Shown here: piece after piece, positions 52,384 through 64,000 of the stretch
How positions within the stretch are numbered: position 1 is the stretch's first letter
How the letters are laid out: each line of letters starts with the position of its first letter
Source: Desulfocarbo indianensis
GTDB taxonomy: Bacteria > Desulfobacterota > Desulfarculia > Desulfarculales > Desulfarculaceae
Length of the DNA: 64,000 bases
NCBI GenBank assembly: GCA_001184205.1
Contig: LBMP01000003.1
Span: forward strand, 434,001 to 498,000
Direction: 5' to 3'
Position numbers and translations under genes: made by a program
The notes under the pieces: generated by a model
Databases searched by the model: none
What the model was told of the DNA's origin: nothing
What the model saw: only the letters and a program-made list of their open reading frames with translations

Positions 52384-53478
52384 ATGCTTAAGCTAATGCT
52401 GGGCGGCCTCAAGGCCGGCCTGCGCCAGCCATATCTGATGCTGAACCGCCGCCGCCGCAGGGTGGTGCGGCCCTTGTTCCTGGACTACGCCGTGACTTGG
52501 CGCTGCAACTCACGCTGCGTCATGTGCGACACCTGGAAATCGGGCCCCGACGACCCGGTCAGCGGCGCGCCGGAGCTCTCCGTGGAGGAGTTGGACCACA
52601 TCCTCAAGCGCGACGCCGACTTCCTGGCCGCCATCAAAAAAGTGGGCATCACCGGCGGCGAACCCTTCCTCAGGCCCGACCTGGCCGACCTGGTGCGGGT
52701 GCTGCACGCCCGCCTGCCCAGGGCGCGCATGTCCCTGGTGAGCAACGGCCTGCTCACCCAGCGCATCCTGAAGACCCTCGGCGAGATCAGAAGCTTTTTC
52801 CCGGAGCTGGTCTTCAGCGTTTCCCTGGACGGCATCGGACAAATCCACGACACGGTGCGCGGAGTGCCGGGCGCCTACGACAAGGCCCTGGCCACCATCA
52901 AGGGAGCCCAGGGCCTGGGCTTCACCGTGACCAGCGGCATGACCATTTCCGAGATCAACCACGACCAGATAGAGCCGCTTTCCCAAATGCTCGGCCGGAT
53001 GGGCGTGGATTTCTCCTGCAACCTGCAAGAACGGGGGGCCAATTTTCACAACCGGGGCCAGGCCGGCGGGCTTTCGCCGGAGCAGCGCGCCAGGGTGCGC
53101 CAGGACCTGGCCAGGTTTTCCCACCACTTCTACATGGACAACGTGCGCCAGCAGTTGGACGGAGCCCAGCGCACCCTGCCCTGCTATTCCGGCTACACCA
53201 GTTATTTCCTGACCCCCTTCGGCGGGGTGGCGGTGTGCAATCTTTTAGGCGAGCCCCTGGGCAATTTGCGCGAAACCGGTTTTAGGGATATAGCTGACGC
53301 GCCCGAGACCTGGCAGCGCAGGGAGGAGCTGGCCGGCTGCACCTGCTGGTCGCAGTGCGAGGTCAAAAACGCCGCCGCCTCGGCGCCCTGGCATGTATTG
53401 AAATGGCTGGCGCGGAATCCCCATAAACGCGCCTTTTTGAAACACTACGCTAAAAAGGCAGGGGTCTTGCCCCGCTAG
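52384..53478 (+). CDS. Radical SAM/SPASM-like protein in a glycan gene cluster
   Basis: A 364-aa protein. The [4Fe-4S] motif CNSRCVMC lies near residue 40, with GITGGEPFLRPDL and FSVSLDGIGQIHD as SAM-binding blocks. The C-terminus has CYSGYTSYFLTPFGGVAVCN and CTCWSQCE, resembling a SPASM/Twitch auxiliary cluster site. Start choice: ATG 52384; a frame upstream to a TTG at 52315 is possible. The polyprenol-phosphate mannosyltransferase-like gene follows by 10 bases. It may modify a cell-surface or peptide substrate, but this is not shown. Confidence 0.85.
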   Translation: MLKLMLGGLKAGLRQPYLMLNRRRRRVVRPLFLDYAVTWRCNSRCVMCDTWKSGPDDPVSGAPELSVEELDHILKRDADFLAAIKKVGITGGEPFLRPDLADLVRVLHARLPRARMSLVSNGLLTQRILKTLGEIRSFFPELVFSVSLDGIGQIHDTVRGVPGAYDKALATIKGAQGLGFTVTSGMTISEINHDQIEPLSQMLGRMGVDFSCNLQERGANFHNRGQAGGLSPEQRARVRQDLARFSHHFYMDNVRQQLDGAQRTLPCYSGYTSYFLTPFGGVAVCNLLGEPLGNLRETGFRDIADAPETWQRREELAGCTCWSQCEVKNAAASAPWHVLKWLARNPHKRAFLKHYAKKAGVLPR

Positions 53479-53488
53479 CAGAGGTGCC

Positions 53489-54190
53489 ATGGAAGTCCTG
53501 GTGGTGGTGCCCACTTACAATGAAGCGGAAAACCTGCCCCGCCTGGCCGAAACCCTGCTCAGCCTGGAACTCGACTTGGGAATCTTGGTGGTGGACGACG
53601 GCTCGCCCGACGGCACCGGCCGCCTGGCCGATGAAATGGCGGCCGCCGACCCCCGGGTGCTGACCTTGCACCGCGAGGGCAAGCAGGGCCTGGGCACGGC
53701 CTATGTGCAAGGCTTTCAATACGGCCTGAAAAACACCGACGCCAAGCTCTTCGTGCAGATGGACGCGGATTTCTCCCATAACCCCTGCAAGGTGCCCGAG
53801 CTGGCGGCGGTGGCCCGCCAGGGCCAGGTGGCCATCGGCTCCCGCTACGTGAAAGGCGGCGGCGTCAAGAACTGGGGCCTGGGCCGGCGCATCCTCAGCC
53901 GGGGCGGCAGCCTGTACGCGCGCCTGATCCTGGGGCTTCCCATCAGCGACGTCACCGGCGGCTTCAAATGCTGGCCCAGGGAGGTTCTGGAGGACCTGGA
54001 CCTTGACTCCATCCGCAGCAACGGCTACGCCTTCCAGGCCGAGATGAGCTACCGCGCCAAGCGGAAAGGCCACTCTTTAAGCGAGGTGCCCATCATCTTC
54101 GTGGACCGCCGGGTGGGCCAATCCAAGATGTCGCCCGGCATAGCCCTGGAAGCGGTGTGGCTGGTGTGGCGCTTGCGGTTCGGCAAATGA
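53489..54190 (+). CDS. Polyprenol-phosphate mannosyltransferase-like glycosyltransferase (GT2)
   Basis: A 233-aa cytosolic GT-A enzyme like dolichol-phosphate mannose synthase. Signatures are VVVPTYNEAENLPRL, ILVVDDGSPDGTG (nucleotide-sugar DDG), FVQMDADFSHNP (DAD metal site) and DVTGGFKCWPREVL. It would transfer a sugar from an NDP-sugar to a lipid phosphate. The following GtrA-like gene overlaps its stop (ATGA). The lipid-linked sugar could feed the GT-C-type membrane enzymes downstream. Confidence 0.92.
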   Translation: MEVLVVVPTYNEAENLPRLAETLLSLELDLGILVVDDGSPDGTGRLADEMAAADPRVLTLHREGKQGLGTAYVQGFQYGLKNTDAKLFVQMDADFSHNPCKVPELAAVARQGQVAIGSRYVKGGGVKNWGLGRRILSRGGSLYARLILGLPISDVTGGFKCWPREVLEDLDLDSIRSNGYAFQAEMSYRAKRKGHSLSEVPIIFVDRRVGQSKMSPGIALEAVWLVWRLRFGK

Positions 54191-54672
54191 CTTCCGCCCG
54201 CCGCCAGTGCGGGCCGCGGCCCTCCACCCTGCTGCCTTTGAGGCCCTGGCTGCGCTGGGGCTGGCGAGGCCTGTTCATCTCGGGCCATGCGGCCAATCAA
54301 TTCATCCGCTTCTGTCTGGTGGGCGCCAGCGGGGTGGGCGTCAACGCCCTCGTCATGTGGTCCACCTTCCAGGTGCTGGATCAGCACTACGTGATCTCCT
54401 CGGTTTGCGCCTTTCTGGTGGCCAATTTCAGCAATTTCGTCCTGAACAAAATTTTCACCTTCGCCAGCCAGGGCTGGTCCTGGGCAAGGCTCGCCGGCCA
54501 ATACGCCCGCTTCCTGGGGGTGAGCCTGGTGGGCCTTTTGATCAATCTGGCGGTGCTGGTGGCCCTGGTGGAGTTGTTACAGATGAATCCGGTGTGGGCC
54601 AACCTGGCCGGAGTGCTGGTGGCCACGATAAGCAACTTCCTGGGCAGCAAATTCCTGGCCTTCCGCCCCTAA
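54187..54672 (+). CDS. GtrA-family membrane protein
   Basis: A 161-aa protein with four transmembrane segments. The core block FIRFCLVGASGVGVNALVMW, VANFSNFVLNKIFTF and ARFLGVSLVGLLINLAVL is the GtrA fold, thought to help move or hold polyprenyl-phosphate-linked sugars across the membrane. The start at 54187 is chosen from the ATGA overlap with the glycosyltransferase gene. Functional coupling with that enzyme is well supported by gene pairing elsewhere. Confidence 0.9.
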   Translation: MTSARRQCGPRPSTLLPLRPWLRWGWRGLFISGHAANQFIRFCLVGASGVGVNALVMWSTFQVLDQHYVISSVCAFLVANFSNFVLNKIFTFASQGWSWARLAGQYARFLGVSLVGLLINLAVLVALVELLQMNPVWANLAGVLVATISNFLGSKFLAFRP

Positions 54673-54685
54673 AGCCACGCCGGGC

Positions 54686-54715
54686 TTGACCCCCTGCCCA
54701 AGCCTCCGGTACACT
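54686..54715 (+). promoter_or_regulatory. Sigma70-type promoter for the PA14/glycosyltransferase operon
   Basis: -35 TTGACC (54686-54691), 18-base spacer and -10 TACACT (54710-54715), about 60 bases before the ATG at 54777. Confidence 0.4.
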
Positions 54716-54776
54716 TGGCGAGCTTCTATTTAACCATTCACTTTCACTGGCTATCTCTGGAACACAGGCTCAATGC

Positions 54777-57023
54777 ATGGCCATAATTAGGGCTTCTCTC
54801 CGCTCCTGGCTTTTGCTGCTCACGGGCCTCGTTATATTGACCGGCCTGGCCTGGTGGCAAGCCTGGGACGCCCGCCGGGCCGTGCTGGAATACGCTTCTG
54901 CCCATGTTCAAACCGGCAAGCGGGGCATGGGCGTCTGGCTTTACGACAACCCCTTCCAAACCGGCGAGGCCCGGTTTTTCACCAAGCCGCCGCCCAATCT
55001 GCACAAGGACCGCCTGCCCCCGCCGGAGCCCGGCCATTTGCCGGCCAAGCAACGGCCCTATCCCTTTGCCTGGCGTTGGATCGGCTTCATCAACGCGCCC
55101 GCCCAGGGCCAGTACCTCCTCGGCGTGTTCGCGCCGGAGGGCATCAGGCTTTATGTGGACGGCCGCGAGGCCATCGAGCGCTGGGAGGCCAAATCGCCCC
55201 GCGATGAAATGGCCTTGCTCAAGCTGGAGCCCGGACCCCATTTGATCGACCTGGCCAATGTGCAGCGCGAGCACCGCCTGGAGCTTACTCTTTTCTGGGC
55301 CCCGCCCGGCGCGCGGGACCGGGAGCTGATCCCAATTGATCTGGCCACGCCTCTGGCCGCCACGGCTTCTCCCCCGCGATTGGATGTGATGTATCAGGCC
55401 CTCCTGCGCTGGCGGGCCTTGCTTTGGCTCTTGCCCCTGGCCTGGCTGGGGCTGTGGCTCCTGGCCCTGAGAAACCCGCAGCGCACCCGGCGGCTCCTGA
55501 AAGAGCACCGCTGGTTCCTGGCCATCCTGGGCCTGGCCGCCCTGCTGCGCCTGGCCTGGGGCGCCACGGTGCACGGCATCAGCGGCGAGAGCGCCTTTTT
55601 CGCCTGGCGGGCCGAACTTGTCCTGCAGGGCGCCTGGCCCTTCCAGGGCATGAACACCAGGGTGGGACCTTTTTGGGATTACGTCCTCACCCTGCCCACC
55701 GTGCTTTTCGGGCCCACCGCCTGGGGCCTGCGCGCCATGGCCGCCGCCATGAATCTCCTGGCCATGGTTTTCGCCTACCGGGTGCTCTTGCGCGAGGCGG
55801 GCAAGCCCACGGCCCTGGCCGCCGCGCTCATGCTGGCGGCCTTGCCGGCCCTGGTCATGTTTTCCCGCATGCCGGTGGAGTTCATGGCCCTGGGTCCCTT
55901 GCTCTTTTTCGCGGGCCTGGACCTGTTCTCCCTGGCCCGCCGCAAGCCGCCTTTAGCGGTGCTGGGCGGCGTCCTGTGGGGCCTGGGCATGTTCAATCAC
56001 TCGGTGTTCGTCGTGTTTCCCGCCACCTTGGGCCTGGCGGCCCTGGCGGTTTCGCGGCTTAAAGTCCTGAAAAGCCCCATCCCCTGGGGCGCGGCCCTGG
56101 GCTTCGGCCTGGCCATGCTGCCGCGCCTGTGGGACCGCCTGAGCCATCCCGAGGTGCAGGACGACCTGAGCTTCCTGGACCCGGCCCGCCTGCGGGAGCT
56201 GGGCGGCTTCGTGATGAGCTACCTGAAGGCCCTGGACGGGGAACTGGTCTACCAGCTTTTCACCGGCCAGCTCCTGATCTTCACCTGGTGGGTCATACCC
56301 GCGGTTCTGGCGGCGGCGGCGCTGTTGCTTGTCTGGGGGCTGATTTTCCGGCGCGATGACGGCTCCTGGCTGGAGGCGGCGCTCATCATCGCCCTCGTGG
56401 CGTATTTGCTCATGGCGCCCCTGGGCGCGCCCACGGCCAATCCCCGCTATTTCGCCTACGCCCTCATTCTCACTGCGCTGATCCTGGGCCGGGCCTGGGC
56501 CAGGTCCTGGCAATGGAGCCCGCCCGCCATACGCAAGGGCGTCTTGGCCGGGCTCCTGGCCTTCTCCTGCTTCTGCCTGGCCAGCCTGGGGGTCAATTAT
56601 TTCTATGCCCATCTTGCCACCGGCGGCCTGCCCCTGGCATGGAATGACCCGCTGCTGGACCACACCTCCGACGCCTGGATGAATCACGATCTCCTGGCCC
56701 GTGAGCTGGCAAAGCGCGGCTATCCGGTGGTGGCCACGGCGGACTACTGGCACCACACCCTGCATCTGGCCCTGAACCTCTATCAGGGCCGCCCGTTGAA
56801 GTTCCAGGCGGTATCCTGGGCCTCGCGCTCCCACACCGAACGCGCGGCGGTTTTCTACAACAGCCCGGAGGGCCGCCGGATCATGCGGGAATTCATCGAC
56901 GGCCACAAGCCCAAGGAGTTCCGGCAATCCCCCCTTCCCCCCTCCCTGGCGAATAAGTATATTCTTTTGGAGAGGGTGGGCCCGGAGGTGGAGCACCCCA
57001 GCGACCTGGATGGTGTGTGGTGA
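54777..57023 (+). CDS. GT39-type membrane glycosyltransferase with an N-terminal PA14-like domain
   Basis: A 748-aa membrane protein. One helix (about 10-28) is followed by a periplasmic PA14-like sugar-binding domain (about 95-185: WRWIGFINAPAQGQYLLGVFAPEGIRLYVDG, LLKLEPGPHLIDLANV, LELTLFWAPPG). The rest is a GT-C fold with about ten helices. The first periplasmic loop (GISGESAFFAWRAELVLQGAWPFQGM) has the acidic residue at the position used by GT39 mannosyltransferases. The C-terminal periplasmic part begins near residue 620. It probably transfers a sugar from a polyprenyl phosphate to a glycan or protein. The next gene overlaps its end. Confidence 0.75.
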   Translation: MAIIRASLRSWLLLLTGLVILTGLAWWQAWDARRAVLEYASAHVQTGKRGMGVWLYDNPFQTGEARFFTKPPPNLHKDRLPPPEPGHLPAKQRPYPFAWRWIGFINAPAQGQYLLGVFAPEGIRLYVDGREAIERWEAKSPRDEMALLKLEPGPHLIDLANVQREHRLELTLFWAPPGARDRELIPIDLATPLAATASPPRLDVMYQALLRWRALLWLLPLAWLGLWLLALRNPQRTRRLLKEHRWFLAILGLAALLRLAWGATVHGISGESAFFAWRAELVLQGAWPFQGMNTRVGPFWDYVLTLPTVLFGPTAWGLRAMAAAMNLLAMVFAYRVLLREAGKPTALAAALMLAALPALVMFSRMPVEFMALGPLLFFAGLDLFSLARRKPPLAVLGGVLWGLGMFNHSVFVVFPATLGLAALAVSRLKVLKSPIPWGAALGFGLAMLPRLWDRLSHPEVQDDLSFLDPARLRELGGFVMSYLKALDGELVYQLFTGQLLIFTWWVIPAVLAAAALLLVWGLIFRRDDGSWLEAALIIALVAYLLMAPLGAPTANPRYFAYALILTALILGRAWARSWQWSPPAIRKGVLAGLLAFSCFCLASLGVNYFYAHLATGGLPLAWNDPLLDHTSDAWMNHDLLARELAKRGYPVVATADYWHHTLHLALNLYQGRPLKFQAVSWASRSHTERAAVFYNSPEGRRIMREFIDGHKPKEFRQSPLPPSLANKYILLERVGPEVEHPSDLDGVW

Positions 57024-57949
57024 GGGCGCGGCTGCCGGTGAAATGGCCCTGGCTGGTCCTGGGCGCGCTCCTGGCCGTGGCCAGCCAGATCGCTTGGCTC
57101 ATGGAGCACGGCTGGGCCGAGGCCCTGCCCCGCCTTATCGCCGGCCTGGCCGCGGGCGCGCTGCTCCTGGGCCCCTTTCTGGCCTGGGTCCTGCCCCGCC
57201 TGCGCCGCCGCCTGGGGCCTCCGGCGGCGCGCCTGGCCTGGCAACTGAGCGGCCTGGAGACCAGGGGCGGCCGCAAGGCCTGGCTGATATCGCTTTTGGC
57301 GCTTTGCCTGGCCAGCGGCGGCGGCATGTATTGGTGGTGGTACCGCCCCAACCAGGGCGCGGAAAAAATCCGGCAACTGTTCCTGGCCCACGCCGAGCAG
57401 ACCTCCAGCGGCCTGAGCACCCTGCTCTACCAGGGCCTGGAGATGACCGGGCCGGCCCTTGATCTGGGCGTCCAACGAGATTGGCGCATGCCGGCGCTGG
57501 AAGACCTGCCCGGCGAGGAACGGCGCAATTTCGTGGTGCGCTGGCTGGGGGTGCTCACGGTTCCGGCGGACGGCCGCTACGGTTTCGGCGGCGCGGTGGA
57601 CGACGGCTTGATCATCCTGGTGGACGGCAGGCAGGCGGCGGCGGATTGGCATGAGGGCCCGCCCCGCCAGGTGTGGGGCGCCCTGGCGCTGGAGGCCGGA
57701 GCCCACGCCCTGGAGATTCGCTACCGCCAGTTTCACGGCGGCGCCAGCCTGCATCTGTCCTGGCAGCCGCCGGGGCTGGAGCGGGGCCCCTTGCCCTTGG
57801 AGCGCTTGAAGCCCCTGAAGCCGGACCCGCCCTTGGCCGAGATGACCGGACTGCGCCTGAGATACGGCCTCATGCCCGAGCCGGTCCCCATCTACCCGCC
57901 GTATTTGGGCGGACGCTTTTGGAGGCTGCCTTGGTACGCGCTCCAGTAG
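57017..57949 (+). CDS. Membrane-anchored PA14-domain protein
   Basis: A 310-aa protein with three N-terminal transmembrane helices (about 10-30, 36-60, 88-108) and a periplasmic PA14-like domain at about 165-265 (VRWLGVLTVPADGRYGFGGAVDDGLIILVDGR, LEAGAHALEIRYRQFHGGASLHLSWQPPG). The domain resembles that of the upstream glycosyltransferase, so it is a related module without the catalytic part. The start is GTG at 57017 or 57020, overlapping the preceding stop. Probably a sugar- or glycan-binding partner of the flanking enzymes. Confidence 0.75.
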   Translation: MVRARLPVKWPWLVLGALLAVASQIAWLMEHGWAEALPRLIAGLAAGALLLGPFLAWVLPRLRRRLGPPAARLAWQLSGLETRGGRKAWLISLLALCLASGGGMYWWWYRPNQGAEKIRQLFLAHAEQTSSGLSTLLYQGLEMTGPALDLGVQRDWRMPALEDLPGEERRNFVVRWLGVLTVPADGRYGFGGAVDDGLIILVDGRQAAADWHEGPPRQVWGALALEAGAHALEIRYRQFHGGASLHLSWQPPGLERGPLPLERLKPLKPDPPLAEMTGLRLRYGLMPEPVPIYPPYLGGRFWRLPWYALQ

Positions 57950-60900
57950 ACCTGGAAGGCCGGCCCGCCGGCAGCGGCTTGCGGGCGGCGCTCCTGATGG
58001 CCCTGGCCCTGCTGGGCCTGGCCCTGGTGCAGACCCATCCCTTGTGGCTATTTCTCGGCGAGGGCATTCCCTACGGCTACCGGGTGGTGCCGGGCTACGA
58101 GGTGGTGCCGGCCATGCCCGGCGATCACCTCCAGTTTCTCTATTGGTGCTGGCTTCTGGGCGACAACCTTTTCGGGCCGTCGGCCTTTTTGAGCAACCCC
58201 TATGAGTTCAACACCTTTCTGACCCCCAACGGCCTGCCGGGCTTCGCCAATTTCCCCTTCTCGCTTTTGTACGTGCTGTTTTCGCCCCTGGGCCAGGCCC
58301 CGGCCTACAACGCCCTGGTGCTGGTCTCCTATCTGCTGGCCGGGCTCTGCGCCTATGGCCTGGCCGCCGAGGTGCTCAAGGACCGGGTGGCCGCCCTGCC
58401 CGCCGGCCTGATCTTCGCGCTCCTGCCCTTCCGGGCGGCCCAGGTGCTCTCGGGCCATCTTTACGGCTTCGTGGCTTTTCTTCTGCCCCTCATGCTCTAT
58501 TGCCTGGAACGGGGCTGGCGGCGGGCATCCTGGCTTTGGGGCGCGGGCGCGGGAGCCTGCCTGGTGGCCATGGGCCTCATGGAGCCCCACCTGGTCTATT
58601 ACAGCGCGCTGTTCCTGGGCCTCTACGTGTTGCTAAGGCTCTTGCTCATGCATCTGGAGGATTATCTCCAGGCCGGAGGCATTGGCGAGGCCTTGCCCGC
58701 CCTGGCCGGCGGCCTGGGCGCGGGCGTCATGGCCCATGTCCACCTTATCCGCGAGGGCGGCGAGTTTTTTTCCAGCGGCCTGGGGGAAGCCTTGGGGCTT
58801 TACGCGGCGCTGGCCCTGTGCCTTTGGCTGCTGGCCTCCTGGCTGATCACCGCCCTGACCACCCTGACCCTGGCCCGGGCCCGCGCGCTGGCCGCCAGGG
58901 GATTGCTGCCCTGGGCCGGCCTGGCGCTTTACGCGGCGCAGCTGAAGCTGGATGTTCCCTATTTGGGCAGCGTCCTCCTGGTGCTGGCGCCCATGGCTTC
59001 CCTTTACCTGACCCTGCCCCAAATTTGGCCCCACCGCAAATTGGCCCTGGGCATCGGCCGCCGCTGGCTGCCGGTGTGGCCCCTGGCCGTGGGACTGTGC
59101 CTCACCGTGGCCCGCATGCTCCTGGTCAAGGCCTCCAATTTCGATCAAAGCATCGCCGGCCAGGGCCGGGACCTGCACGAGGTGCTCCTGTTCGCGCCCC
59201 GGCTGCACGACCTCCTGGACATAAACAACCCGCACATGGAAAAGCTGGTGCATCTGGGCTGGGTTCTGGCGGGCCTAAGCCTCCTGGCCCTGGCGCTTTT
59301 GGCCCTGGCCAGGCCCGCCAAGGCGCGGCAGGCCTCCCTGGCCGCCATCTGGGCCTTTCTGGCGGCCCTCAGCGGCCTCTTGGCCCTGGGCCCCACGGTG
59401 AAGGCCGCGCCGCTCTATGAGCTGTTTTACGCCATAGTGCCCTTTTTCAATTTCCCCAGGGTCCCCGGCCGGCTCATCATCTTCGCGGTGCTCATGCTCT
59501 CGCTCCTGGCGGGCTGGGCCGTCCGGGAGCTGAGCGGCGGGCCGCGCCGCAAGGCCTGGCTGAGCGCCGCGCTGAGCCTGGCCCTGACCGCGGGCCTGGC
59601 CTGGGACCTGGGCCTGCCCGCGCGCACCGGCGTCAGCCTGCTCACCTCGCCGGGGCAGGTGGCCGCCGGCGTCACTAGCCAGATGATAACCGGCCCCGGC
59701 TCGCCGGAGAGGCTCCTGGGGCTGCCCATCTGGCCCGGCGATTCGCATCAGTCCTCGGTATACGAGCTTTTGATCACCCAGACCCGCGCCCAGATGGTCA
59801 ACGGCTATTCGCCGGTGGTGCCCCGCTCCTATGTAAAGCAGGTGTTCCAGCCCCTTTACGCCCTGGATTTGGGGCTGGTGGATAAAACCGCCCTGGAAAA
59901 CCTGGACAAGCTGGCGGTGAAGCTGGTCAGCTTTCACGACGATTCCCTGGTCTACTCGCCCAAGGTGTGCCCCTATCCGCCGGCTTTAGCCCGCCAGCGC
60001 CTCATGGCCTCGGGCGCTTTCTTCTACGTGGCCCGCCACGGCAATATTTTTCTGCTGAGCCTTAAATCCGGGGCCAGGCCCGACCCCGCGCCGGGCAAGA
60101 TAATCTCGCCGGTGACCAGCCTTTGGGAGGCCGAGAATCTGCCCCGCGAAACCGGTGAGCTGCGGGAAGAAAAAGAGGCGTCCGGCTGGGGGCTCTTGTT
60201 CCTGGACGCGGTGCGGGAGGGCCAGCCCCTGCCGCCCCGCCGGCCAGGGGCCGCCGGCAATGTGGTGCGGGCCCGGGCCGGCCGGCACCAAGCGGGCTTT
60301 CTCTGCTTCGGGCCCTACAAGGCCTTTCCGCCGGGCAGCTACGTGGCCAGCTTCCGGGTGCGCAGGCCCCCGGACAAGCCCGCCGCCAGCCCCGGCTGGG
60401 TGGAGGTCAGCGCCGACAAGGGCCAGCGCGCCCTGGGCAAGCTGACCTTGAGCCGGGAAATCCTGCCGGCGGACGGGGCCTGGCACGACGTGAAAATCCC
60501 CTTCAATCTGCCCGTCATCACCGAGCTGGAGCTGCGCTCCTTTTTCACCGGCCAGGAAGACCTGGACCTGGACGTGATCACCGTGGAATTCGCCGACAGC
60601 CTGCCCGCGGACGGCTTTTACCGGGCCCAGGATATGTGGCGGGAAACCGGCGAATTGATCGGCGACCGCTGGGTGGAGGGCGGCATGGCGGTGGAGGGCC
60701 GCGCCGGGCGCAACCCGCCGCTCAACCTGATGCAGGGCCCCCAGAAAACCTATGAGCCCGGCCGCTATCTGGTGAGCTTCCGCCTGGCCGCTAGCGGCCC
60801 GTCCTCCGGCAAGGAGGCGGCCGCCCATCTGGTGGTGGCCACCGATCTGGGCCTGCGCCCCCTGGCCGATAAATACGTCACGGCCGAGGATCTGACCGAG

Positions 60901-61071
60901 GTGTATCAGGATTTCAACCTGGAGCTTGATCTGAAAAGAAGATGCGAGCTGGGCTTAAGGGTGAAGTTCCTGGGCGCCGTCTCCCTGCGCCTGGCCGGAG
61001 CCTCGGTGATTCCCCTGGACAAGGGCGAAAAAAAGCCCGAGGACCCGTCGCTCTCGAACGGCGGAAGCTGA
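57931..61071 (+). CDS. Large GT-C/YfhO-like membrane protein with C-terminal carbohydrate-binding-like repeats
   Basis: A 1046-aa membrane protein. The first helix is followed by a periplasmic loop HPLWLFLGEGIPYGYRVVPGYE and then DHLQFLYWCWLLGDNLFGPS, the pattern of GT-C and YfhO-like proteins. About 13 helices end near residue 560. The periplasmic C-terminus contains two similar modules, each starting with an ETGEL box, with PPGSYVASFRVR / EPGRYLVSFRLA strands. These look like beta-sandwich carbohydrate-binding domains. The start TTG at 57931 is chosen because GGAGG precedes it; the frame is open further upstream but overlaps the PA14 gene. Overlaps that gene by 19 bases. Confidence 0.75.
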   Translation: MVRAPVDLEGRPAGSGLRAALLMALALLGLALVQTHPLWLFLGEGIPYGYRVVPGYEVVPAMPGDHLQFLYWCWLLGDNLFGPSAFLSNPYEFNTFLTPNGLPGFANFPFSLLYVLFSPLGQAPAYNALVLVSYLLAGLCAYGLAAEVLKDRVAALPAGLIFALLPFRAAQVLSGHLYGFVAFLLPLMLYCLERGWRRASWLWGAGAGACLVAMGLMEPHLVYYSALFLGLYVLLRLLLMHLEDYLQAGGIGEALPALAGGLGAGVMAHVHLIREGGEFFSSGLGEALGLYAALALCLWLLASWLITALTTLTLARARALAARGLLPWAGLALYAAQLKLDVPYLGSVLLVLAPMASLYLTLPQIWPHRKLALGIGRRWLPVWPLAVGLCLTVARMLLVKASNFDQSIAGQGRDLHEVLLFAPRLHDLLDINNPHMEKLVHLGWVLAGLSLLALALLALARPAKARQASLAAIWAFLAALSGLLALGPTVKAAPLYELFYAIVPFFNFPRVPGRLIIFAVLMLSLLAGWAVRELSGGPRRKAWLSAALSLALTAGLAWDLGLPARTGVSLLTSPGQVAAGVTSQMITGPGSPERLLGLPIWPGDSHQSSVYELLITQTRAQMVNGYSPVVPRSYVKQVFQPLYALDLGLVDKTALENLDKLAVKLVSFHDDSLVYSPKVCPYPPALARQRLMASGAFFYVARHGNIFLLSLKSGARPDPAPGKIISPVTSLWEAENLPRETGELREEKEASGWGLLFLDAVREGQPLPPRRPGAAGNVVRARAGRHQAGFLCFGPYKAFPPGSYVASFRVRRPPDKPAASPGWVEVSADKGQRALGKLTLSREILPADGAWHDVKIPFNLPVITELELRSFFTGQEDLDLDVITVEFADSLPADGFYRAQDMWRETGELIGDRWVEGGMAVEGRAGRNPPLNLMQGPQKTYEPGRYLVSFRLAASGPSSGKEAAAHLVVATDLGLRPLADKYVTAEDLTEVYQDFNLELDLKRRCELGLRVKFLGAVSLRLAGASVIPLDKGEKKPEDPSLSNGGS

Positions 61072-61115
61072 GGCGGCCCCTCGCCGGCGGCCCTGGGACT
61101 GCCTGCGCCGCGGGC

Positions 61116-64000
61116 TCACTTGATTTCCAGGGTGGCCAGTTCCACCTCCTCGGTGCCCTTGCCCTCGCCTTCCAGGATGGGCACGCCCTTGCCCGTGTGC
61201 TGGGGGTCCCACAAACCCACCACCAGACGGTAGCTCCCCGGCGGAATGTCCGCGGGGATGCGCATCTTGTAATCCTCGCGCACCACCTCGCCCACGTTCA
61301 GGTCGGCCATGTTGCGCTTGCCGTGGCCCAGCAGATGGTCATAGGTGAGCGTGCGGTCGGGGCCGCGCAGATGCACGAAGATGAAATAGTTCAACGGCGG
61401 CCGCGCCCAGCAGCGCCAATAATAGGCCACGTCCAGCTCCTGGCCGCGCTGGGCCTGGTTGGCCGAGATATCGTAGCCCAGGAGGGTGAGCCCGCCGGCG
61501 AAGCGCGCCTCCTTTTTCAGGGAAGGCCGCAAATGGGCCAGGCGGCTTTCCACCCTGGCCGCGTCCTCCGGCTTTTGCAGGGTCTGGTAAAGCTCGCGCA
61601 CCGTGTCCAGGCGTTGGGGTTGGTCCTTGAACAAATCCTCGGCCACCCGCGCCCGCGCCAAGGCCTCCTCGACCTTGCCCATGTCGGAAAGGGCCCGGGC
61701 CGAGGGGATGTAGGCCCGGCTGAAGCCGGGGTCCAGGGTCAGCAGTTTTTCAAAAGAGGCCACGGCCTCGGGATAGAGCTTGTCGCGCAGGGCCACGCGG
61801 CCCTTGGCGTCCAGATACCAGCGCAGCACGTGGCGCATATGGTCATGCAGATCAACCCCCACCGTGAGCCTGCCCACCCGCAGATTCCGGGTGGTGGCGT
61901 AATCCAGGCGGAACTCCAGGCGGGAGCCTTCCCAGGGCGTCAGCACGTGCAAGGAAATCAAGCCGCCGGCCTTGGCCAGGTCGGCCCCGGACAGCCGCTT
62001 GGCCGTCAAGAGCTTTCCCCCGTGGGGGCCGTAGGCCCAAATCTCGGCGATGGCCAGGGGCGCGTCGGCCGGCGCGGACGCTTCCAGGGCCAGATCGAAA
62101 TCCACCCGCAGGCTGGCCTTGGGAAAGGGAGTGTCCAGCCAGAGCCGCAGGCGTCCCTCCGGCTTGTGGGGCTGGCGCTGATAGGTGCCGTGGAATCCCC
62201 GGCCGCTTAAAGGCCGCTCCTTGCCGTCGGCCACGATGGGCGGCCCGTCCACCTCCACGCTGGATGAACAGGCCGAGCTCAAAAGATCGGGGTGATAGCC
62301 GGTGAACTCCTGGAAGGCTTGCCGCCAATCCGGCCCGGCCTCCGTTGCCAGGGCCAGCTTCTGATAGCGCTCCGCCGCCTCCCCCGGCATTTTCAGGAGG
62401 CCGGCCAGCACCTGGCTGGCCTGGTCGTATTTATCCTGGCTCACCAGGGCCTGGGCCAGCATGGCCCGCGCGTCGAAGCCGGCGCGCCCTTCTTCCAGCT
62501 CCCGTTGCAGTATGCGCTCCGCCTCCTCGTAGCGGCCGGATTCCAGGGCCCTGCGGCTCACCAGGAGGGGGTCCCATTGCAGCCTGGCCAACAGCTTGTC
62601 CCCCCGGCGCAACCGCACCCGCAAGGGGAACACGGAGCGGTTCATGGGCGGCCAGCGGCGGGGCTTCAAGTGCAGGTCGGTCTCCTGTCCGGGATAAAGA
62701 CTGAAGCTGTGCGACGGCCACAGGCCCTGGGCCACCTCGATCACCGCCAGGTCTTCGCCCAGATTGGCCAGCACCAGGCCCAGCTCACCCAAGCCCTCCC
62801 GGGCCACCAGCACCCGCTGCCCCAGGGAATCGCCCCCCCGGATGAGCATGGTGCCCTCATCCCGCGAATACGCGCCTTGCCCCGTGTAAACCACCGCGTA
62901 GCCGCGCTCCACCCCCACCGGCGGTTTCCAGAGGGCCAGGGGCTGGCGAACGTTAAGCGGCGGATAGGCCCCGTAGATTTCGACCTTGGGGCTCACCCAG
63001 CGGGGGAAGCCGGCGCCGCCGCCTTCCGGCGCCGCGCTCCAGCCCGCCTTCAAATCGAAGCGCTTCAAGAGCTGCAGCCTTTGCGCGGGGTCCACCGTCT
63101 GGGGCATGGCCTTGGGCGGCGACCAGTCCTGCCAGGGGTCGGCCTGGTCTTCCTGGCTCAGGCTGCTCACGGCGATGAAATCGCGGCCGGGCTTCAGTTC
63201 GGCCAGGCTGGTTTTCCGCGCCAGGTTTTGGGTGGCCACGAAAACGTTGAGCGGGGTGCGCGGGCCCACGTAGAGCTTGGCCCCGGCCGGCAGGTTGGCT
63301 TCCAGCCAGAAGCGGGCGGAAGTGAAGGTGTCTTGCTGCCAGAAAAGATAATCCACCCCCAGGGAGCGCCAAAATGGCCAGAGGCACAGCCCCAGGCCCA
63401 ACACCGCCACGCCGGTGACGGCCATGCGGTAATCCGGCAATTGCCGGCAAAGCCAGACCATGGGCCAGGCCGCCACCAGGGCCATTATGGGCAGCCAGGC
63501 CGCGGCCAGGCCCTCCACCGAGCCGCGCAACACCGTGACCCCGGCCAGGAGATACAGGAGAGGCACCGCCGCCAGGAGCAGCCGGCCCCATTTGCGGCGA
63601 TAGATGATGAGCCCCAGGCCCAAAATCCAGAGTACCAGCAGTTCGAGGCCCACCCGGCTGGCCACCACGGCCAGGGAATCGGTCAGCCTGGCGGCGGCGA
63701 AGCCCAGCCAGGCGCCGCCCGTGCCCGGAGGCAGGGTCAGGGAGCCCCGCAGCAGATCGGCGGTTTGGTCCGAGCGCACCACAAAGCCGGGGTAGCCCAC
63801 CACCAGCCCCACGGCCAGCCCCAGGATAAAGGCTCCCGGCCAGAACAGGAACAGGCGGTTGGGTTTGGGCCGGGCCTGCCGGGCTCCGATGATGAACGCC
63901 GCGGCCATGAAGAAAAAGGCCAGCACCCCGCTGGCCCGGGTGGTGATGGTGAGCCCCAGGATCAGCCCGGCCAGGGCCATGACCCGCGAGCGGGGGTATT
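61116..64000 (-). CDS. GT39-like membrane glycosyltransferase with TPR and beta-sandwich modules, N-terminus beyond the window
   Basis: The frame is open to the right edge (YPRSRVMALAGLILGLTITTRASG reads through 64000), so the N-terminus with the catalytic loop lies outside. What is present is 960 or so residues: the last helices of a GT39-like membrane domain (GLTITTRASGVLAF, LAVVASRVGLELLVLWILGLGL), a periplasmic part, TPR-like helices (ESGRYEEAERILQRELEEG; DKLYPEAVASFEKLLTLDPG), a beta-sandwich region, and a final domain PPGSYRLVVGLWDPQHTGKG. It converges on the preceding gene (44 bases between stops). Role in surface glycan assembly is inferred. Confidence 0.75.
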   Translation of the reverse strand, partial: YPRSRVMALAGLILGLTITTRASGVLAFFFMAAAFIIGARQARPKPNRLFLFWPGAFILGLAVGLVVGYPGFVVRSDQTADLLRGSLTLPPGTGGAWLGFAAARLTDSLAVVASRVGLELLVLWILGLGLIIYRRKWGRLLLAAVPLLYLLAGVTVLRGSVEGLAAAWLPIMALVAAWPMVWLCRQLPDYRMAVTGVAVLGLGLCLWPFWRSLGVDYLFWQQDTFTSARFWLEANLPAGAKLYVGPRTPLNVFVATQNLARKTSLAELKPGRDFIAVSSLSQEDQADPWQDWSPPKAMPQTVDPAQRLQLLKRFDLKAGWSAAPEGGGAGFPRWVSPKVEIYGAYPPLNVRQPLALWKPPVGVERGYAVVYTGQGAYSRDEGTMLIRGGDSLGQRVLVAREGLGELGLVLANLGEDLAVIEVAQGLWPSHSFSLYPGQETDLHLKPRRWPPMNRSVFPLRVRLRRGDKLLARLQWDPLLVSRRALESGRYEEAERILQRELEEGRAGFDARAMLAQALVSQDKYDQASQVLAGLLKMPGEAAERYQKLALATEAGPDWRQAFQEFTGYHPDLLSSACSSSVEVDGPPIVADGKERPLSGRGFHGTYQRQPHKPEGRLRLWLDTPFPKASLRVDFDLALEASAPADAPLAIAEIWAYGPHGGKLLTAKRLSGADLAKAGGLISLHVLTPWEGSRLEFRLDYATTRNLRVGRLTVGVDLHDHMRHVLRWYLDAKGRVALRDKLYPEAVASFEKLLTLDPGFSRAYIPSARALSDMGKVEEALARARVAEDLFKDQPQRLDTVRELYQTLQKPEDAARVESRLAHLRPSLKKEARFAGGLTLLGYDISANQAQRGQELDVAYYWRCWARPPLNYFIFVHLRGPDRTLTYDHLLGHGKRNMADLNVGEVVREDYKMRIPADIPPGSYRLVVGLWDPQHTGKGVPILEGEGKGTEEVELATLEIK

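Follow-up and report, generated by a model that had tools for sequence, protein, structure and literature searches.

A probable periplasmic glycosylation cluster with added lectin-type modules in Desulfocarbo indianensis

A window of 64,000 nucleotides (nt; contig C222:434001-498000) from Desulfocarbo indianensis, a relative of sulfate reducers (genome of 5.1 Mb, 98.65% complete), was studied, and a gene cluster in it probably serves to add sugars carried on lipids to a glycan of the cell surface. The genes on the + strand (52384-61071) encode a radical SAM (rSAM) protein, a GT2 enzyme, a GtrA-family protein, the enzyme PA14-GT-C, the membrane protein PA14m and a large protein called here the sandwich enzyme, in this order; a TPR-bearing enzyme is encoded convergently. 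With a probability of roughly 0.6 we read the locus as a periplasmic glycosylation cluster of the three-component type with lectin-type modules added. The three-component scheme fits because the donor side of GT2 and GtrA is combined with GT-C enzymes, and the placement in the periplasm would follow from the GT-C topology. The general scheme is known; the combination of parts is unusual. An initial annotation, made from the sequence alone, had described a cluster of an rSAM enzyme, a lipid-sugar synthase, GtrA and membrane transferases bearing PA14 or beta-sandwich parts, and all of these were found by Pfam or in fold models. The features are as follows (CBM, carbohydrate-binding module; TM, transmembrane).

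52384-53478, + strand: rSAM protein with SPASM-like C-terminal cysteines (Pfam Radical_SAM PF04055, 66 bits, cut-off 29.5)
53489-54190, + strand: GT2, similar to polyprenyl-phosphate-sugar synthases (Glycos_transf_2 PF00535, 96.3 bits, cut-off 23.3; match to 5mlz)
54187-54672, + strand: GtrA-family membrane protein (GtrA_DPMS_TM PF04138, 96.8 bits, cut-off 26.1, scored on 54157-54672; start read from the sequence)
54777-57023, + strand: PA14-GT-C, a PA14-bearing GT-C enzyme of GT39 type (PMT_2 44 bits, cut-off 26.1; PA14 26 bits, cut-off 24)
54921-55355, + strand: PA14 module of PA14-GT-C, residues 49-193, without Asp-Asp (model match to 6qe7)
57017-57949, + strand: PA14m, with N-terminal TM anchor and C-terminal PA14 (PA14 47.4 bits, cut-off 24)
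57512-57775, + strand: PA14 domain of PA14m, residues 166-253, with Asp-Asp kept (Pfam range)
57931-61071, + strand: sandwich enzyme, large, multi-TM and GT-C-like, with two C-terminal beta-sandwiches (model and orthologues; putative TTG start)
60253-60591, + strand: CBM-like beta-sandwich 1, residues 775-887 of the sandwich enzyme (model match to 6yf6)
60610-61017, + strand: CBM-like beta-sandwich 2, residues 894-1029 of the sandwich enzyme (model match to CBM4-2 4bj0)
61116-64000 in the window, full gene to 64553, - strand: convergent TPR-bearing GT-C enzyme of GT39 type (PMT_2, TPR_19)
62352-62555, - strand: TPR region 1, residues 667-734 of the full TPR enzyme (PF14559 and PF13432 ranges)
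61626-61805, - strand: TPR region 2, residues 917-976 of the full TPR enzyme (PF13424 range, weaker than its cut-off)

Domain content, gene order, conservation and co-occurrence were determined with computational tools. Pfam families over cut-off were obtained for rSAM, GT2, GtrA, PMT_2, PA14 and TPR and count in favour of the proposed cluster, as do the match of GT2 to dolichol-phosphate-mannose synthase, the model parts matching PA14, GT-C and CBM folds, the adjacency of the two PA14 genes and the co-occurrence of the rSAM gene with them. The GT-C transferase of a three-component system is represented by PMT_2 over cut-off in two genes and by the GT-C fold in the PA14-GT-C model. Three overlaps point in the same direction. 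The ATG of the GtrA gene overlaps the stop codon of GT2 (ATGA), PA14-GT-C and PA14m overlap by 7 nt, and PA14m and the sandwich gene overlap by 19 nt, counted from the putative TTG start. The gap between rSAM and GT2 is 10 nt, that between GtrA and PA14-GT-C 104 nt. A simple hydropathy scan counted ten TM stretches each for PA14-GT-C and the sandwich enzyme, eight for the TPR enzyme, three for GtrA, two for PA14m and none for GT2. The scan for promoter-like (2 versus 1.2 expected) and terminator-like sites (10 versus 8.1 expected) was uninformative. The clustering is more than chance, because related genomes share parts of the gene order.

On the donor side, the best match of GT2 in the PDB was the dolichol monophosphate mannose synthase 5mlz (E 2.3e-32, residues 1-229 of 233), and by its sequence GT2 would belong to the lipid-phosphate-sugar synthases. 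The adjoining GtrA-family protein is a putative flippase. With phmmer no match for it was detected in the PDB at E 0.01, and NCBIfam gave no match for GtrA, PA14-GT-C, PA14m or the sandwich protein. Taken together, the donor side resembles a dolichol-phosphate-mannose synthase split from its GtrA-type membrane domain. GT2 was found at E <= 1e-25 in 10 of 21 genomes and the GtrA family in 12 of 21, 11 of them over cut-off. Orthologues of GT2 (63-64% identical) in the genomes G004, G008, G010 and G012 have, about 3-5 kb away, a distant paralogue of the TPR enzyme, which is a second hint that GT2 serves GT-C enzymes of the TPR type.

The rSAM protein has a radical SAM core by its Pfam score, and orthologues in five other genomes are 61-69% identical. 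Its SPASM-like character, as initially annotated, stands with regard to the C-terminal cysteines, which together with CX3CX2C and GGEP are common to 6/6 aligned orthologues, but the SPASM domain itself scored 19.6 bits in Pfam, below the curated cut-off of 21.5. The rSAM gene is linked to the cluster; its role in the pathway we only infer. Similarity to the SkfB maturase (E 2.2e-14) and the SPASM-like C-terminus would suit a maturase of a ribosomally synthesized and post-translationally modified peptide, which the neighbouring genes would glycosylate or export. This explanation is very improbable. The precursor search, confined to the vicinity of rSAM and not extended to the genome elsewhere, showed no separate + strand frame of at least 20 amino acids starting between the divergent upstream gene and rSAM. 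Just 10 nt lie between rSAM and GT2, and no maturase model reached its cut-off among the best 25 of 60 matches.

The most distinctive part of the proposed glycosylation cluster is the pair of PA14-GT-C and PA14m. The model of PA14-GT-C is of low confidence overall (mean predicted local distance difference test, pLDDT, 51.0), that of the sandwich enzyme is poor (44.8). With these values, trust in both models over their whole length was dropped; the beta domains and, weakly, the GT-C cores were used. Residues 49-193 of PA14-GT-C adopt a PA14 fold in the model (6qe7: Z 9.9, root mean square deviation (rmsd) 3.0, 108 aligned residues). At about residues 233-460 a GT-C fold was matched by 8agc (Z 10.8, rmsd 5.1, 196 aligned) and by ArnT 5ezm (Z 8.5, rmsd 4.9, 193 aligned). 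With Foldseek alone, no match to this model reached E 0.001. The profile of PA14m matches solved PA14 domains (E 8.4e-22). That a separate membrane protein repeats the PA14 module, as had been noticed at first, was borne out by profile comparison: columns 92-289 of PA14m align with columns 5-198 of PA14-GT-C (probability 99.3, E 3.1e-20). The aligned stretch of PA14m runs from the membrane segment before the PA14 domain through that domain. Therefore, the shared unit is TM segment plus PA14 and not PA14 alone.

Another membrane module makes up the first 80-100 residues of PA14m. This module (57017-57320) recurs at the start of Desulfarculaceae proteins of about 520-550 residues (L027:3984-5555, L024:9327-10892 and L077:5684-7318). 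The one scanned, L027:3984-5555, is an arylsulfotransferase domain protein (PF14269, 111.8 bits). One anchor thus seems to serve two different outside domains, PA14 in PA14m and arylsulfotransferase in the L027 protein. Inspection by eye of the genes neighbouring the arylsulfotransferase protein in three loci revealed no obvious link. In-frame stops in the PA14m matches of relatives had raised the idea of recoding, which was dropped: the stops fall at the gene end. This end was read directly in genome G002, and the other sequences stop at the same place.

According to excerpts of PMC8092209 and PMC8621652, two consecutive aspartates coordinate calcium and sugar in PA14 lectins. Asp-Asp is kept in PA14m of 6/6 orthologues and absent at the aligned position of PA14-GT-C in 5/5; the sixth enzyme, from the same-genus sister genome G001, is cut by the contig end and was left out of this count. 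As a control, five other PA14-bearing proteins of Desulfarculaceae (one from the own genome, two from G018 and one each from G007 and G009) were inspected, and all kept Asp-Asp. That Asp-Asp is absent from the enzyme but retained in its coupled partner is the most specific clue to the working of the pair. It suggests that sugar binding may be supplied in trans by PA14m; Asp-Asp alone is no proof of binding. A more detailed and tentative idea, which we put forward with considerable doubt, is a split between lectin and enzyme. The PA14 of the enzyme would have lost sugar binding and become the docking half. The translationally coupled PA14m, whose copy of this TM-PA14 unit is mounted on another membrane anchor, would give calcium-dependent sugar recognition and set the glycan end or chain length that is modified. 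The rSAM enzyme would make an unusual sugar or lipid acceptor for the pair.

For the sandwich enzyme no Pfam or NCBIfam family reaches its cut-off. Membership in the YfhO family (PF09586) was rejected at 9.9 bits versus a cut-off of 28.5. The C-terminal 250 residues of its model form two beta-sandwiches with pLDDT mostly about 60-85. The first (775-887) matches the sugar-binding domain 6yf6 (Z 10.8, rmsd 2.6, 105 aligned), the second (894-1029) the CBM4-2 structure 4bj0 (Z 11.5, rmsd 2.6, 123 aligned). Best matches in Foldseek were other beta-sandwich proteins. In the membrane part (model residues 12-603), which has low pLDDT, 289 residues align with oligosaccharyltransferase 6ezn (Z 13.0, rmsd 4.9) and 240 with AftD 6wbx (Z 10.5, rmsd 5.0); both matches are within the background stated for helical models. 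The GT-C classification made at the outset therefore holds for PA14-GT-C and the TPR enzyme, with PMT_2 over cut-off, but for the sandwich enzyme it depends mainly on a low-confidence model and on context; its two predicted beta-sandwiches are better supported.

The full gene of the TPR enzyme (L004:1117-4554) extends from 61116 past the window end to 64553, where it was completed by following the sequence beyond 64000, a check suggested by the initial annotation. TPR_19 (48.7 bits, cut-off 25) and PMT_2 (32.1 bits, cut-off 26.1) exceeded their cut-offs, with one TPR region above cut-off. Thus, three large membrane proteins with PA14, paired beta-sandwich and TPR modules are present as first described, by Pfam for PA14 and TPR and by model for the sandwiches. 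The additions are domains and not loops: PA14 was recognised by Pfam, by the profile match to solved PA14 domains and in the model, the CBM-like sandwiches in the model. On its own strand, the TPR gene is preceded at its 5' side by genes for a homocysteine biosynthesis enzyme, an Rrf2 regulator, MnmA and a GT4 enzyme. It is a separate transcript, because it lies convergently on the opposite strand. Separate regulation of the genes had been named as an argument against a common system. It applies in part, because transcription of the TPR gene runs from the other strand.

Full-length PA14m was found in 6 of 118 genomes, the own genome included, all of them Desulfarculaceae; some match was present in 17. 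PA14-GT-C occurs in the same six of 148 genomes, once cut by a contig end, with some match in 11. Hence the pair is held by 6 of 20 Desulfarculaceae genomes. The cultured relative Dethiosulfatarculus sandiegensis has the rSAM gene as well as PA14-GT-C and PA14m. A scan with two peptide patterns, which can miss divergent copies, over a collection of 84,980 species gave six loci, of which five belong to Desulfarculaceae and the sixth is an acidobacterial match, weak and partial. When 395 genomes of the phylum were searched with a profile, 39 contained a match. Only the window's own was full-length; the others were partial, mostly the PA14 stretch or the N-terminal anchor, and the five other known holders were not among the matches, evidently lying outside that sample. 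In G007 a remnant was detected (L070, approximately C118:2770-3044), in which the start of the PA14 enzyme runs into the end of PA14m in different frames. This suggests a deletion of nearly the whole pair, and G007 was not counted as a holder.

Orthologues of rSAM (E <= 1e-60) were present in 6 of 60 genomes, five of which have the PA14 pair. The presence of rSAM in five of the six holders has a hypergeometric probability of 0.0022 among the 20 family genomes, without correction for ancestry. The sandwich enzyme was matched in 29 of 148 genomes, 19 of the 20 Desulfarculaceae among them, and the TPR enzyme (E <= 1e-50) in 19 of 40, all Desulfarculaceae (19/20). Two layers are thus observed, a family-wide core of sandwich and TPR enzymes and an accessory PA14 cassette, which tends to co-occur with the rSAM gene.

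Within the core, the sandwich and TPR genes lie side by side and converge in 9 of 20 loci of one survey and also in L018, L020 and the window. In those nine loci, genes for homocysteine biosynthesis, Rrf2 and MnmA precede the TPR gene on its strand. The other 11 loci lack this arrangement. Five come from other families; six are Desulfarculaceae loci, some short or near contig ends, with the TPR gene absent or (G003) a distant relative in the same direction. At L059:4759-11181 (G011) both genes are split over several frames by decay or assembly errors.

These two layers would also suit independent neighbouring systems with no single product, namely a sandwich/TPR pair serving a core glycan of the envelope, the accessory PA14 genes and a unit of rSAM and GT2, perhaps with GtrA. 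We consider this explanation possible, if rather doubtful. The sandwich and TPR enzymes mostly occur without the PA14 pair, the TPR gene has its own strand, rSAM-GT2 is found by itself in G001 and the PA14 pair by itself in G011, and G007 kept only the deletion remnant. Against this, the two genes of the pair are adjacent in 6/6 holders and lie next to rSAM or the sandwich gene in 5/6. In four (window, G001, G016 and G013) the pair is directly upstream of the sandwich gene, with a position elsewhere in G002 and G011, and two of these four have rSAM directly before the pair or before GT2-GtrA. The PA14m gene overlaps both its neighbours in the window. The rSAM gene comes before the pair in G016 and G002 and, separated from it by GT2-GtrA, in the window; in G011 and G009 it adjoins a sandwich gene.

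Several points weigh against a single glycosylation cluster. The 104-nt gap before PA14-GT-C holds a promoter-like site, at chance level, and the TPR gene lies on the other strand. For the sandwich enzyme, no family exceeds its cut-off and the model is poor. In G011 the PA14 pair adjoins neither rSAM nor the sandwich gene, and the sister genome G001 has its rSAM-GT2 near a contig end, at a distance from the pair. GtrA was not found in G001 (71% complete), and among the loci examined it adjoins GT2 only in the window. G009 lacks the pair but has rSAM, and the reverse was found in G013 (70% complete). The cluster as one system is the least certain step, the main rivals being independent neighbouring systems and protein O-glycosylation. 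GT-C enzymes with sugar-binding-type modules, synthase and GtrA fit a surface glycan system, and the unusual surface glycan or glycoprotein initially suggested may be its product, but the cluster is not one unit, because the sandwich/TPR pair is family-wide, the PA14 pair accessory and the TPR gene on the other strand.

Protein O-glycosylation would employ the GT39-type enzymes as bacterial protein mannosyltransferases for exported proteins, and the added modules and TPR would recognise protein substrates. The PMT_2 matches and the GT2 similar to dolichol-phosphate-mannose synthase agree with it, and according to an excerpt of PMC6151902 protein glycosylation in Caldicellulosiruptor bescii needs a GT39-type enzyme. 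However, PMT_2 includes many transferases that depend on lipid-sugars, modules of the PA14 and CBM type suggest that glycan and not peptide is recognised, and no protein substrate gene was identified. This explanation is therefore unlikely.

For the preferred reading, a periplasmic three-component-type cluster, the donor, the acceptor, the direction of transfer, the roles of PA14m and rSAM and the service of all genes to one glycan would be as follows. GT2 would load polyprenyl phosphate with a hexose in the cytoplasm, and the lipid-sugar would be moved or anchored by GtrA. PA14-GT-C would put the sugar onto an acceptor at the periplasmic side, the acceptor being held by the partner PA14m. The sandwich-bearing GT-C-like enzyme and the convergent TPR GT-C, both nearly family-wide, would work on the same or a neighbouring glycan. 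The cytoplasmic rSAM enzyme would alter a sugar, lipid or protein precursor.

Related arrangements were seen at other loci. In family f15 the divergent neighbour of the sandwich homologue (L048:11938-14394 and L049:12395-14797) is of GT39 type with an F5/8 type C domain. The domain scan, covering L048 and L049 and not the third locus L050, gave 45.2 and 44.0 bits for F5/8 type C and 35.5 and 22.3 bits for PMT_2, the last value being below the cut-off of 26.1. By domain assignment, F5/8 type C is a different lectin-type module in a position comparable to PA14. Family f18 (L051:3-5446 and L052:6647-12025) has a distant rSAM protein, about 25% identical, one gene from a sandwich-enzyme homologue; in L051 the gene between them is a GT4. 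The own genome contains a second glycan-type region (L065, G000:C1:187000-203000), where a 687-residue PA14 protein (34.8 bits) sits between two PMT_2 proteins with GT4-like genes nearby.

If the preferred reading is true, bacteria add sugar-recognition modules to lipid-sugar-dependent transferases. The module type would vary with lineage, PA14 here and F5/8 type C at two loci of another family, and a testable enzyme-lectin pair would result. Surface glycans of this lineage appear little studied, and by title the matches for Desulfarculus in the open literature concern other organisms. Among the titles listed from the open PMC literature, none on a bacterial PA14-GT-C fusion was found, and by title nothing relevant on rSAM tied to glycosyltransferases of O-antigen or lipopolysaccharide. 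PA14-glycosyltransferase fusions in general are not new, because PMC8621652, in the part consulted and citing Rigden 2004, reports PA14 in glycosyltransferases.

Among known systems, GtrA/GtrB/Gtr of enterics and CsbB/GtcA/YfhO of Gram-positives have the same GT2 synthase, GtrA protein and GT-C enzyme in one neighbourhood, and the published scheme assigns them the same roles (excerpts of PMC7389260 and PMC11127046). In contrast to these three-component systems, the cluster has several GT-C genes, PA14 and CBM-like modules, a separate membrane PA14 protein and an rSAM gene. Unlike in CsbB/GtcA/YfhO, the sandwich enzyme is by score not a YfhO member. GT2, over its length, matches the catalytic part of the archaeal dolichol-phosphate-mannose synthase of Pyrococcus (5mlz), a fused protein that includes the GtrA/DPMS transmembrane domain, whereas here the GtrA_DPMS_TM domain is on an overlapping gene, giving two separate genes. 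The sandwich enzyme, by its low-confidence model, may resemble the mycobacterial GT-C enzymes EmbC and AftD in combining a GT-C-like membrane part with CBM-like beta-sandwiches. AftD carries carbohydrate-binding modules. EmbC has a lectin-like module according to a title cited in PMC11127046. The sandwich enzyme differs from both in its modules (two C-terminal sandwiches), in lineage and in having no family match over cut-off. With calcium-dependent PA14 lectins, PA14-GT-C and PA14m share the PA14 fold, and PA14m alone also has Asp-Asp. Animal B4GALNT3 is a Golgi enzyme and not a GT-C with a lipid-sugar donor. It resembles PA14-GT-C in the fusion of PA14 to a glycosyltransferase, and according to an excerpt of PMC11254600 its PA14 is noncatalytic and removal greatly lowers activity. 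In contrast to B4GALNT3, the PA14 of the enzyme described here is without Asp-Asp and is accompanied by a separate PA14 partner protein.

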